From: Natroniella sulfidigena | GTDB taxonomy: Bacteria > Bacillota > Halanaerobiia > Halobacteroidales > Halobacteroidaceae | NCBI RefSeq assembly: GCF_023223645.1 | Contig: NZ_JALKBY010000014.1 | Location: 1-64,000 of the forward strand | Reading direction: 5' to 3' | DNA: 64,000 nt | Shown: positions 532 through 7,617 of the stretch, one piece after another | Layout of the letters: every line of letters starts with the position of its first letter | Position numbering within the stretch: the stretch's first letter is position 1 | Notes under the pieces: generated by a model | What the model saw: the letters and a program-made list of their open reading frames with translations, nothing else | The model's database searches: none | What the model was told of the DNA's origin: nothing | Made by a program: the position numbers and the translations under genes

Positions 532-924
532 TCAATCACCTTGCTTTTCAATATAATGTTGAATAGTTTCAGAACTTACATTACCTGCTGTAGCAACAAA
601 ATAAGCTCTAGTCCAGATTGAACCCTTAATATTTAGTTCTGGAAATTGCTTGGATATTCTTCTTCCAGTAGTGCCTTTAATGATATTCATTAGTTTACTG
701 GGGGAATATTTAGGCAAAGCTGATATGAAAAGATGGATATGGTCAGACATTATTTCGGTATTCAATACTTCAAAATTGTGTTTATCAGCTAATTCATTTA
801 TAGTACCTAGAATTAACTTTTTAATTTCAGGATTATCTAAAATTGTTTTTCTATACTTTGGTATCCATACAAAATGATAGTTTAAAAGAAACTTTGCGTG
901 TCTTGTGCTTTTATAGGTATTCAT
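532..924 (-). CDS. tnpA: TnpA, Y1 (HUH) transposase of IS200/IS605 family
   Basis: This 130-residue protein has the usual IS200 transposase length. The HUH motif is visible as HIHLF near residue 62, and the likely catalytic tyrosine is in QHYIEKQ close to the C-terminus. IS200 TnpA cuts and joins single-stranded element ends through a 5-prime phosphotyrosine bond. The promoter-proximal order tnpA-tnpB on the reverse strand is the standard IS605 arrangement. The start ATG at 924 is preceded by GGGGG (RBS-like). The gene looks intact. Confidence 0.95.
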   Translation of the reverse strand: MNTYKSTRHAKFLLNYHFVWIPKYRKTILDNPEIKKLILGTINELADKHNFEVLNTEIMSDHIHLFISALPKYSPSKLMNIIKGTTGRRISKQFPELNIKGSIWTRAYFVATAGNVSSETIQHYIEKQGD

Positions 925-1091: not shown

Positions 1092-1276
1092 GAATTACAA
1101 TTATGTGTAACTTCAATTGAAAATTGATAGTTGAAATTCTTTGAAATTCAAAATCCAATCTTTTAAAATCCTTTATAAGAAAGGGAGAATATGATTTTTA
1201 TGTTTTATGGTTTTAACTATCCACTATCAATTATCAACTATAAACTATTGATATAAAGTGAAGCTTTATATCAATT
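1092..1276. repeat. Dispersed repeat A, copy 1 (about 185 bp, hairpin-rich)
   Basis: This segment is nearly the same as 6202-6389. Both contain AATTGATAGTT-like sequence and its reverse complement AACTATCAATTATCAA, so the unit can fold on itself. Both end with a perfect 11-bp stem (TTGATATAAAG, 5-nt loop, CTTTATATCAA; here 1248-1274). It encodes no plausible protein. It lies directly upstream of the metK riboswitch, while copy 2 lies upstream of the Pus10 gene. A MITE-like non-autonomous element is the likely nature (inference). Confidence 0.8.
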
Positions 1277-1350
1277 AAGTTTCAGTAGATATTGACAGAA
1301 ATTATCCAGTATGTTAAACTTATAATAATTGTAAAAAACATATAAGTTTG

Positions 1351-1489
1351 TGCATCAAGAGTAGTGGAGGGACAGGCCCTATGAAGCTCGGCAACCACCT
1401 TGAAAGAGGGAAAGGTGCTAATTCCTGCAAGGATATCCTTGGGAGATGTAGAGGTTAAAAATTATCTCTCCTATGAGGAGGGATTTTTT
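1351..1489 (+). promoter_or_regulatory. SAM-I riboswitch (S-box) with terminator, controlling metK
   Basis: The aptamer core is recognisable: ATCAAGAG, GTGGAGGGACAGGCCCTATGAA (in two parts), CTCGGCAACC, AAAGGTGCTAATTCC, and GAGATG closing P1. These are the conserved S-box blocks that bind S-adenosylmethionine. Downstream, 1464-1484 forms a 9-bp hairpin with loop ATG followed by six T, the expression-platform terminator. SAM binding is expected to favour this terminator and stop metK transcription. The leader ends 60 nt before the metK start. Confidence 0.96.
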
Positions 1490-1548: not shown

Positions 1549-2730
1549 ATGTCTAAAAGATACTTATTAACATCTGAGTCAGTTACTGAGGGACATCCAG
1601 ATAAGGTTGCTGATCAGATTTCGGATGCTATATTGGATGAAATTTTAGCTCAAGATCCTCAAGCGCGGGTAGCTTGTGAAACTAGTGTAACGACAGGAAT
1701 GATTTTGATAGCAGGTGAGATATCTACAGATTGTTATGTAGATATTCCTAAGGTTGCTCGTAAAAAGGTAAAAGAAATTGGTTATACAAGGGCCAAATAT
1801 GGATTTGATGGTGATACATGTGCTGTACTGACTTCAATTGATGAACAATCTCCTGATATTGCTCAAGGTGTAGATGAAGCATTAGAGGTTAAGCAAGGAG
1901 AAGAAAATGAAGAAATTGGGGCTGGAGATCAAGGGATTATGTTTGGGTATGCTACTAATGAGACAGAAGAGTTGATGCCTTTACCAATAACTTTAGCTCA
2001 TAAATTAGCTCAGAGGTTGGCCCAGGTAAGAAAAGAAGGAATTTTGGAGTATATTAGACCTGATGGTAAGACCCAGGTAACTGTGGAGTATGAAGATGAT
2101 AAACCTGTTAGAATTGATGCAGTTGTTGTATCTACTCAGCATGATCCTGAGGTTAGTTTAGAACAGATTAGAGAAGATCTAATTGAGCATGTGATTAAAG
2201 AAGTAATTAACTCTGAATTTTTAGACCAAGATACTACATATTATATTAATCCGACGGGACGTTTTGTAATTGGAGGTCCTCAAGGAGATGCAGGATTGAC
2301 AGGAAGAAAGATAATTGTAGATACTTATGGAGGAGTAGCTCGCCATGGTGGAGGAGCTTTTTCGGGTAAAGATGCAACTAAAGTAGATCGTTCTGCAGCC
2401 TATGCTTCTCGTTATGTAGCTAAAAATGTTGTTGCAGCTGGTCTAGCTGATAAATGTGAGGTTCAGCTATCTTATGCAATTGGAGTAGCTCATCCTGTTT
2501 CAATTATGGTTGATACCTTCGGAACTGCTAAGATTGATGAAGTTAAAATTGAAGAATTAATTATGGAACATTTTGATTTACGGCCGAGTAAGATTATTGA
2601 GAATCTAGATTTATGTAAGCCTGGTTATAGTAAAGTAGCAGCTTATGGTCACTTTGGTAGAAATGATTTAGAACTTTCTTGGGAGCAAACTGATAAAGCT
2701 GATATTTTACGGCAAGAAGCAAGATTATAA
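1549..2730 (+). CDS. metK: S-adenosylmethionine synthetase
   Basis: The enzyme joins ATP and methionine to give S-adenosylmethionine in the cytosol. The 393-residue length fits the family. Signature motifs are [13 protein letters not shown] (residues 15-27), [12 protein letters not shown] (124-135, the methionine/ATP loop) and GGGAFSGKD (about 265). The ATG follows AAAGGAGG at good spacing. The gene stands alone between the SAM-I riboswitch and a strong terminator, so product feedback through the riboswitch is the obvious control. Confidence 0.99.
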
Positions 2731-4701: not shown

Positions 4702-6159
4702 ATGAAAAAGAGAACTAAAATTTTGGTAATTGTATTTTTGGTTATGGGAGTTGGAATTTTAATTGTTAATTCATATCTAGGAAATGTTATAGCAGAGCAA
4801 ATAGAAGCTAGAATAGAAGTGGAAGCAAAAGAAGCTGCTGTGCCTACAGAAGTTGAGTATGCTAATTTAGAAGTCAATCCTTTATTAAGCAAGGTTGTTT
4901 TTAATGAGTTTATAATCAAAGATGATCAAGAAGAAGTCAGTTTTGAGGAGTTACAGATTAAAATACCTAAAAGTGATCTAAGTAAAGCAATTCAAGCAGG
5001 CAGTTTAAATAATCCAAATTTTAAAGAAATCAGTTCGCTAGATTTTGAATTGGCTAATTTGAAAATTAATTCAACTATTGCAGAGTTTGAAAAGATGCTT
5101 ATTGAGCAGTTGAATTTTAAATTTACAGGTCAGTTTATAGAAGAAGAATTGCAGAAGTTAGAGGCTTTAGATCTTGAGCTAGCTGAATTAGTAATTGATT
5201 TAGGAAGAGATGATGAACAACTAGTTTTAGGAGAATTTAAACTCCAATTTGATGGTTTGCTCAAGCAAAGAATGGAAGAGGAACCTGAATTATTAGTAGA
5301 ATATGATCAAAGTTTGAAATTAGCTTCTGATGATTTTAAGATAGATGCTATTCGCTTATTTGAAGAGTTATTATTTTCTGCAGAGACCGGAGCCAAATTG
5401 ACTACGATAGATAATTTAGTTATGGATATCAGTTATGATTCTAGCAAGCAAGAACTGAATTTTAGAGAGGCTAAGCTAGATACGCCTATTTTAACGACTG
5501 ATTATTCTAATACTTATCAATTTAGTGGAGATTCGTTAGAGGAATTTGAATTGACTACTATAGCAGGTGAAGGTTATTTAGAACTTGAAACTGGAAGGTT
5601 AGAGTGGGGAGATTCTAACTTAACAGGAAAATATAGTGTTGATGATTTTTCTGTGATGGCAGAGTATGATGCAGTGACTGACTATTCTGGTTTATCAGAT
5701 GGAGAATTTGATAATATTTTTGAGGGCCAAGGAGAGACGAATATTTTAGTAGAAGGATTTGAAGTGGAGCTTGCTGGTATGTTAAGAGAGCAATTAGAGC
5801 ATCATCCTGCTGTCTTTATGTTTGGGCTTGACTTAGATGACTTTAGAATTGAGTTATTAGATTTAGCTTCTAGTTATCAAGAGCAGAATATGAAGTCTAG
5901 TACAAAGTTGAATAGTTCGTTATTAGATCTGGATGTTGCTGCTGATTTTGAGATAGCTAAAGATGATTTTGAGGAGTCAAATTTTAATAAGCTTAAAGCT
6001 GAGGTAAGTAATTTAGCTCCTAATCTGCAACTGTTAGTGATGGGACTTGAGGCGGAGTTAGGGACAATGTTGCCTCGAGAAGGAGATAATTTATTTTTTG
6101 AATATGTTGGCCCGTTGAAGGATTTACAAGTTGAAAATTTCAGAAATGAGGAAATATAA
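4702..6159 (+). CDS. Membrane-anchored protein of unknown function (AsmA/DUF945-like appearance)
   Basis: The 485-residue protein starts with KKRTK and one hydrophobic segment (about residues 7-25), then a long, highly acidic extracytoplasmic part rich in beta-like alternation and repeats such as LELETGRLEWG. No catalytic motif is seen. The pattern of an N-terminal anchor followed by repeated amphipathic strands resembles AsmA-like or DUF945 proteins of diderm bacteria, but this is only an impression. AGAGGGGG supports ATG at 4702. It appears to be a single gene, with repeat A copy 2 downstream. Confidence 0.7.
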   Translation: MKKRTKILVIVFLVMGVGILIVNSYLGNVIAEQIEARIEVEAKEAAVPTEVEYANLEVNPLLSKVVFNEFIIKDDQEEVSFEELQIKIPKSDLSKAIQAGSLNNPNFKEISSLDFELANLKINSTIAEFEKMLIEQLNFKFTGQFIEEELQKLEALDLELAELVIDLGRDDEQLVLGEFKLQFDGLLKQRMEEEPELLVEYDQSLKLASDDFKIDAIRLFEELLFSAETGAKLTTIDNLVMDISYDSSKQELNFREAKLDTPILTTDYSNTYQFSGDSLEEFELTTIAGEGYLELETGRLEWGDSNLTGKYSVDDFSVMAEYDAVTDYSGLSDGEFDNIFEGQGETNILVEGFEVELAGMLREQLEHHPAVFMFGLDLDDFRIELLDLASSYQEQNMKSSTKLNSSLLDLDVAADFEIAKDDFEESNFNKLKAEVSNLAPNLQLLVMGLEAELGTMLPREGDNLFFEYVGPLKDLQVENFRNEEI

Positions 6160-6201: not shown

Positions 6202-6389
6202 TAATTACAATATTGTGTAACTTCAATTGATAATTGATAGTTTAAAATTGATAGTTAAAATTCAAAAGCTAACCCTTTTAAAGCCTTTATAACTAAGGGA
6301 GAATGTGTTTTTTATGTTTTATGGTTTTAACTATCCACTATCAATTATCAACTATAAACTATTGATATAAAGTGAAGCTTTATATCAAT
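6202..6389. repeat. Dispersed repeat A, copy 2
   Basis: This is the second copy of the 185-bp unit at 1092-1276, with the same internal inverted repeats and the terminal hairpin TTGATATAAAG...CTTTATATCAA at 6362-6388. It occupies almost the whole gap before the Pus10 gene and must be part of that gene's upstream region. Confidence 0.8.
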
Positions 6390-6432
6390 ATAATGTTAAT
6401 TTTAGAAATTGTAAACTGATATAACAGAGGTG

Positions 6433-7617
6433 ATGAAAATCGATTTTAAAACAAAACGTGATAAATTAATTGCAGAAGGGCTTTGTGATCATTGTTTAGG
6501 AAGACAGTTTGCTAAATTAGGTTATGGACTTGAAAACTATGAACGGGGTGCAATCTTAAGGCAGAATGAAGAAGTTAGTAAGAAAGATTTTGCTAAAGAT
6601 AATGTACCACAAGATGCTGAACTTGGTGGGGAGTGTTATTTATGCCAAGGGGTGTTTGAGAAAATAGAAAGCTATGTTGATCTGCTTAGTGAAGCATTAG
6701 AACCATATCAGTTTAATAGTCTCTTAGTTGGGGTTTCTTTACCACAACAGATTAAAGAAGATGAGAAGGAGTTATGGGCCAACTATGGCAGACAAGATGC
6801 TGAGTTGCTCAAGTCAGAATTAAATCGTTTGATCGGTAAACGAGTATTAAGAAAGCTTAGTGTAGGAGTTGATTTTGAGCGTCCTGATATTAGTCCAGTA
6901 ATTAACATTGAGAATGAAAGGGTAGAATTGCAGATTAGTCCACTCTTAATTTATGGGAAGTATAATAAATATGTTCGTGGTGTATCTCAAACAAAGTGGT
7001 TCCATGATAGAAGTGTCAAGTCGGTCGAAGAGATTGTAGCTCAACCAGCGATTGAAGTTGCTGAGGCTGAAGGGGCCAAATTTCATGGGGCAGGAAGAGA
7101 AGATATTGATGTTAGATGTTTTGGGAAGAGAGAGTTTGTCTTAGAGTTGCTTAGAGCTAAGAAGAGAAATCTTAATTTGCAAGAGCTAGAGGAAAGAATT
7201 AACAATTATCAAGAGCAAGTTGAAGTCTTTGAGTTGAAGTTTGCTGCTAAGCAAAAGATCAAGGAATTAAAGAGCAAGAGGGTAGCTAAACTTTACAAAG
7301 CTTTAGTCAAAACTTCTCAAGAGATTGATGAAGATAAGTTAGCTAAATTAAAGCAGCTCAGTGGTACAATAAGACAGCGTACCCCACAGCGGGTCAACCA
7401 TCGTAGGAAGGATATGGTTAGGAAGCGAGAAATCTATAAAGTACAAGCGGAGTTACTGACTGCTAATAAGCTAGAGTTAATGATTAAAGCTGAAGCAGGT
7501 GCTTATATCAAGGAGTTGATCTCTAGTGATGATGGTCGAACAGAGCCTAGTGTTGCTGAGTTATTAGATTGTTCAGCTGAATGTGAAAGATTAGATGTAA
7601 TTGGAATAGATAATTAG
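6433..7617 (+). CDS. pus10: Archaeal-type tRNA pseudouridine synthase Pus10
   Basis: The 394-residue protein reads like archaeal Pus10, which makes pseudouridine 54/55 in tRNA. Visible hallmarks are LCDHCLGRQFAKLGYGL (residues 17-33) with C18/C21 and C68/C71 as a zinc site, LLIYGKYNKYVRG (about 171-183), HGAGREDIDVR (218-228) containing the probable catalytic Asp, and RTPQRVNHRRKDMVRKR with GAYIKELISSDDGRTEPSV at the C-terminus. A cysteine-rich stretch that, as I recall, many archaeal members carry after the QT.W motif is absent here. Bacteria normally use TruB for position 55. ATG at 6433 is used; GTG at 6430 is possible, and the RBS (AGAGGTG) is unusually close. Horizontal transfer from archaea is the simple inference. 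Confidence 0.88.
   Translation: MKIDFKTKRDKLIAEGLCDHCLGRQFAKLGYGLENYERGAILRQNEEVSKKDFAKDNVPQDAELGGECYLCQGVFEKIESYVDLLSEALEPYQFNSLLVGVSLPQQIKEDEKELWANYGRQDAELLKSELNRLIGKRVLRKLSVGVDFERPDISPVINIENERVELQISPLLIYGKYNKYVRGVSQTKWFHDRSVKSVEEIVAQPAIEVAEAEGAKFHGAGREDIDVRCFGKREFVLELLRAKKRNLNLQELEERINNYQEQVEVFELKFAAKQKIKELKSKRVAKLYKALVKTSQEIDEDKLAKLKQLSGTIRQRTPQRVNHRRKDMVRKREIYKVQAELLTANKLELMIKAEAGAYIKELISSDDGRTEPSVAELLDCSAECERLDVIGIDN

Follow-up and report, generated by a model that had tools for sequence, protein, structure and literature searches.

An archaeal-type Pus10 in Natroniella sulfidigena and related bacteria without TruB: a likely replacement of a tRNA pseudouridine synthase

Natroniella sulfidigena and four other genomes of its order carry an archaeal-type Pus10 and have no detectable TruB, and it is likely that this laterally acquired enzyme makes tRNA pseudouridine 55 (Psi55) in TruB's stead, the activity itself being inferred without RNA or enzyme data. 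Psi55 would be the main product, with Psi54 a possible second one. Among tRNA modifications, Psi55 has been called the most universally conserved. Pus10, in turn, is stated to be an enzyme of archaea and eukaryotes that bacteria lack (PMC7912444, PMC9957541, PMC5682645), and no prior report of Pus10 in Halanaerobiales or Halobacteroides was found in the accessible literature searched. What is likely new here, the function being inferred, is a structurally trimmed branch of Pus10 in bacteria that stands in for TruB; an almost universal step in the maturation of tRNA seems to have changed hands across domains of life.

The gene lies in a window of 64,000 nucleotides, the whole stretch of DNA that was analysed, and its features are collected in Table 1. 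The reading frame opens with an ATG and closes with a stop codon at 7615-7617; the GTG at 6430 is an in-frame alternative, and the exact start is unsure, as the starts of the relatives vary. Against the NCBIfam profile TIGR01213 the protein scores 408 bits (E 3.9e-122; curated cut-off 200), and because the match spans residues 9-392 and profile positions 4-401 of 402, this is a whole-length Pus10 (COG1258). The domain order, a THUMP-bearing N-terminal part followed by the catalytic domain, is likewise that of Pus10. Weak secondary matches to Cbf5 arise because the catalytic core is common to both families, and TruB (TIGR00431, PF01509) is not among the families matched. An AlphaFold model built from a seven-sequence alignment (mean pLDDT 88) finds its best structural match in human PUS10 (2v9k; Z 28.2, rmsd 3.1, 373 residues), followed by structures of Cbf5, TruA, and TruB at Z 15 or less (TruB 1k8w, Z 13.4). 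The protein is thus Pus10 and not a member of another pseudouridine synthase family. Since TIGR01213 matches the bacterial copies, annotation pipelines may already call them Pus10.

Table 1. Features of pus10 and its surroundings, in positions of the window
Feature	Position	Strand	Remarks
IS200-like transposase	532..924	-	Y1_Tnp, 129.5 bits
Exact copy of repeat core	1224..1241
SAM riboswitch	1349..1452	+	upstream of metK
metK	1549..2730
485-aa protein	4702..6159	+	directly upstream of pus10; no Pfam match
Imperfect inverted repeat	6227..6362		arms ~34-38 nt; just upstream of pus10
AGAGGTG, Shine-Dalgarno-like	6425..6431	+	immediately 5' of ATG 6433; read from sequence
pus10 gene	6433..7617	+	394 aa plus stop; archaeal-type tRNA Psi55 (54) synthase
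First N-terminal CxxC (Cys18, Cys21)	6484..6495	+	invariant in alignments
Second N-terminal CxxC (Cys68, Cys71)	6634..6645	+	invariant in alignments
THUMP domain, archaeal Pus10 type	6676..6906	+	residues 82-158; Pfam PF22023, 71.6 bits
Pus10 C-terminal catalytic domain (Pus10_C)	6949..7611	+	residues 173-393; Pfam PF21238, 216.8 bits
Archaeal knuckle site, empty in window Pus10	6997..7020	+	alignment
Asp224 codon (GRED, motif from residue 221)	7102..7104	+	aligned, conserved
RTPQRVNHRRKDMVR segment	7378..7422	+	residues 316-330; conserved in bacterial and archaeal copies

The sequence hallmarks of the family are retained. Asp224, which by analogy with the pseudouridine synthase superfamily we take to be the catalytic aspartate, is kept within GRED in the bacterial copies and in their archaeal relatives, the divergent Natronococcus copy (see below) excepted. 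YGKYNKY begins at residue 174, RTPQRVNHRR at 316, and AGAYIKEL at 355, which preserves both TPxRV and, at the C-terminal end, the AGxYxKEL...GRTxPS motifs; the segment RTPQRVNHRRKDMVR is inferred, by analogy with TruB, to be the thumb loop. The zinc-knuckle-like CxxCxGxGCxxC, on the other hand, has all four cysteines in 28/28 archaeal copies inspected and none in the five bacterial ones. Its loss is a derived state common to all bacterial copies, which therefore favors a single origin for them, and possibly altered their specificity. The bacterial proteins are also nearly neutral in charge where most nanohaloarchaeal copies are acidic, consistent with adjustment to the bacterial host. Between the window genome and its same-genus relative (G438) dN/dS for pus10 is ~0.16, as compared with ~0.09 for metK and ~0.07 for pepF; pus10 is under purifying selection and somewhat less constrained than these neighbors. 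An initial annotation made from the sequence alone had proposed a Pus10 with its sequence blocks present end to end, its four N-terminal cysteines and GRED in place and a mid-protein cysteine-rich segment missing. All of this held, every motif that it quoted being present. Its suggestion that the enzyme may be active is in keeping with the retained motifs and the purifying selection, activity itself remaining an inference.

The five Pus10-bearing genomes, all from salt-loving bacteria, fall in two families, four in one (the window genome, G438, G436, and G177) and one, G039, in the second. In G438 the protein is 85% identical to the window copy, with pepF and metK nearby in both; the window genome has a single copy. 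Elsewhere in Bacillota only weak partial matches of 18-26 bits were obtained, not counted as Pus10, and sampling of bacteria outside Bacillota was not broad. A scan of viral contigs gave no relative.

Consistent with replacement, Pus10 and TruB do not coexist in the genomes surveyed. Two profiles detect no TruB in the window genome, a finding that makes the case stronger than the initial annotation had proposed. TruB is present in 51 of the class's 59 genomes and Pus10 in five; none has both, and three (G321, G382, and G399, the last only 57% complete) have neither. Across Bacillota TruB is the rule: 346 out of 356 good genomes have it, and the order of the window genome supplies five of the ten exceptions. 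If kinship is ignored, zero overlap has a probability of 1.1e-5 across the class and 0.016 within the order; when kinship is counted, at most three independent contrasts remain, and a sign test shows no significant association. It is therefore chiefly gene-cluster anatomy, and not statistics, that carries the claim. The calls of TruB absence come from profile searches of draft genomes; the gene-cluster comparison supports them, as do G177 and G321, each a single contig. That G321 and G382 lack both enzymes indicates that Pus10 is not strictly a precondition for losing truB. These two may possibly be free-living bacteria without Psi55.

The cluster in question, proS...rimP-nusA-infB-rbfA-nrnA-truB-ribF-rpsO-pnp, was compared in 13 genomes of the order. 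In all six that have TruB, its gene sits between nrnA and ribF; in the seven that do not (7/7), the cluster is intact and truB alone is gone, leaving an nrnA-ribF distance of -8 to 111 bases (1 bp in the window genome). Two of the gaps still carry traces of the excised gene. In G321, MKGIINF... is in frame with a short stretch left over from the end of truB (L074 11660-11745, reverse-complemented locus), and the gap, flanks included, gives blastn matches to the two ends of the truB region of G117 (E 3e-13 and 9e-22). In G382, the 3' end of truB (LFKPVRLFC) persists, probably along with the first codons (L075 5665-5815, reverse-complemented locus). The TruB proteins of the two families are sister groups (support 96/93), and truB was therefore native to their ancestor and lost several times; at least four losses are inferred on the species tree if the gene was never regained. 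Regain of truB by the TruB-bearing clade of the first family was considered and rejected, since its TruB is the sister group of the second family's TruB and its gene lies in the ancestral position.

As to the source of the bacterial gene, a genome-wide scan places the closest relatives of the window protein in the Nanohaloarchaeota, at 47-48% identity (47-49% for the nearest relatives of the bacterial clade), where 25 of 28 genomes contain Pus10 above the cut-off. In two trees the five bacterial proteins come out as a single clade (100/99 and 100/100) that groups with the Nanohaloarchaeota; support for its nesting inside that phylum is modest (86-87/86-90), and a placement just outside is not rejected (p 0.17). 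The lineage-specific gain that the initial annotation had envisaged is thereby upheld. The donor was most likely a nanohaloarchaeon, the direction of transfer being inferred. Altiarchaea were represented in the tree by one partial copy only. A haloarchaeal donor is unlikely: the one Natronococcus copy is 26% identical and sits on a very long branch. It is the sole haloarchaeal copy found, comes from plasmid records and may be atypical, and haloarchaeal chromosomes were otherwise unsampled. This very divergent homologue, possibly a paralogue, lies on a 1.02 Mb plasmid of Natronococcus sp. AD-5 (L112 1456-2763), has GQEADD in place of GREDID, and carries a longer cysteine segment. The simplest account of the bacterial distribution, inferred and not excluding transfer within the order, is a single ancient gain followed by reciprocal loss of Pus10 or TruB.

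Several features of the DNA around pus10 may be recorded in their own right. The imperfect inverted repeat just upstream of the gene resembles a small MITE-type element; its core, CTATCAATTATCAACTAT, recurs exactly at a second site close to the IS200-like transposase gene (3 matches against 0.03 expected).

The mechanism we propose would begin with lateral transfer of pus10 from a nanohaloarchaeon, or from an extinct lineage closely related to one, in brines common to donor and recipient. Archaeal Pus10 is a stand-alone enzyme that needs no protein cofactor (PMC7912444), and the transferred protein could therefore have done TruB's work immediately and unaided. Acting alone, it would grip the tRNA by its THUMP-containing N-terminal part and Cys4 site while the putative thumb loop holds the T-arm; U55 would be flipped into the active site, where Asp224 is predicted to drive isomerization at C5 to give Psi55. 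Once redundant, truB would have been excised repeatedly from its conserved cluster, with those relatives that keep TruB being without Pus10. When acting on the tRNAs of an E. coli truB-trmA mutant, M. jannaschii Pus10 forms both Psi54 and Psi55, and P. furiosus Pus10 forms Psi55 only (PMC7912444). For the M. jannaschii enzyme the thumb loop and the N-terminal cysteines are reported to be important for Psi54 formation (PMC9957541); both are retained in the window protein, and the knuckle is lost. A forefinger loop is also said to govern Psi54, and the missing segment may lie within it.

Whether U54 is also a substrate bears on the enzymes that ordinarily act there. TrmFO is the usual m5U54 enzyme of Firmicutes. 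It is absent from 13/13 genomes of the order, with or without TruB, which yield only 50-65 bit matches to ~630 aa proteins that we take to be the paralogue MnmG. No TrmA match reaches the cut-off in the order's genomes, and neither the order nor the two nearest genomes of the Nanohaloarchaeota have TrmY, the methylase of Psi54, which rules this enzyme out as a co-transferred partner of Pus10. U54 may therefore be free for Pus10, with the reservation that a TrmA-family paralogue may possibly methylate it. TrmFO is also missing from many other genomes of the class, irrespective of TruB. As a separate observation, within the window's family at least two TrmA/RlmCD-like genes are found in the TruB-bearing genomes (G437, G439, G440, and G441) and one in each of those with Pus10 (G000, the window genome, G438, G436, and G177); the extra copy is a possible m5U54 candidate, and kinship may account for the pattern. 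A bolder reading would have the knuckle-less Pus10 make both modifications, Psi54-Psi55 replacing T54-Psi55 and the TPsiC arm becoming PsiPsiC, with TrmFO gone and no TrmA-family enzyme acting in its place. We lean against it. Were it true, sister species without Pus10 and TruB would have neither modification by known enzymes. The altered T-loop modification foreseen in the initial annotation thus remains possible in the form of Psi54 and is not shown.

Of the alternatives to this picture, the best surviving is repeated movement of Pus10 among members of the order, or an independent gain in each of the two families. In its favor, pus10 occupies three different chromosomal places (beside pepF in the window genome and G438, beside ABC-transporter genes in G177 and G436, and elsewhere in G039), and the species that carry it do not form one clade on the species tree. 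Against it, the bacterial proteins do form one clade with the knuckle loss in common, and their branching follows the species in one tree (G039 outside the other four, 85/81), the other tree being unresolved. On balance we would give repeated transfer less than an even chance, and retain the single ancient gain as the working account.

A second alternative holds that an active Pus10 mainly makes Psi54, at the position vacated by the loss of TrmFO, with U55 either unmodified or served by an unrecognized synthase and the loss of truB a separate matter. The lack of TrmFO across the order, the lack of any TrmA match reaching the cut-off, and the loss of truB in two genomes without Pus10 could be so explained. 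However, TrmFO is equally absent from TruB-bearing species that have no Pus10, so that nothing ties its loss to Pus10; archaeal Pus10 makes Psi55 in the described cases (PMC7912444); and Pus10 and TruB are together in no genome. We consider this alternative unlikely. Less likely still is a non-catalytic Pus10 that keeps only an RNA-chaperone or binding role. Human PUS10 does have a catalysis-independent role in microRNA processing (PMC9957541), and the knuckle is gone from the bacterial proteins, but five divergent copies under purifying selection keep the catalytic Asp, GRED, basic TPxRV..R, and the C-terminal motifs, and this makes the case for it very weak. Finally, archaeal contamination of the assembly, suggested only by the archaeal type of the protein, is all but excluded by the bacterial neighbors of pus10 on an 85 kb contig (an argument that the initial annotation had itself made, and which held), by the copies in related genomes of the order, one of them in a single-contig genome of 2,649,255 bases (G177), by the 85% identical same-genus copy with pepF and metK likewise nearby, and by a knuckle loss specific to the bacterial clade.

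If Pus10 has indeed taken the place of TruB, this natural cross-domain replacement offers a test of whether bacteria need Psi55 alone or the tRNA chaperone role of TruB as well. The relatives with neither enzyme allow one to test whether Psi55 is needed at all. A knuckle-less Pus10 is, moreover, a means to ask what the knuckle does, and its bacterial host offers a direct way to search for Psi54.

In comparison with known systems, the bacterial enzymes resemble archaeal Pus10 (M. jannaschii, P. furiosus, H. volcanii) in their N-terminal Cys4, THUMP, and GRED catalytic domain, and differ in lacking CxxCxGxGCxxC and in being less acidic than most nanohaloarchaeal copies. Human PUS10 has the same fold and, by alignment, is likewise without a knuckle at that site, but its accessory domain is larger and it occurs alongside TRUB1 (PMC7912444, PMC9957541). 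TruB shares the proposed product, Psi55, and a distantly similar catalytic core, yet belongs to a different family and is absent from every genome that has Pus10. A further parallel is the replacement of TrmA by TrmFO, and of SAM-dependent by folate-dependent m5U enzymes, which are likewise mutually exclusive analogues at one T-loop position (PMC7912444). The present case differs from that one in that the replacing enzyme is archaeal in origin, that it concerns Psi55, and that the deletion of its predecessor can be traced in the native gene cluster.
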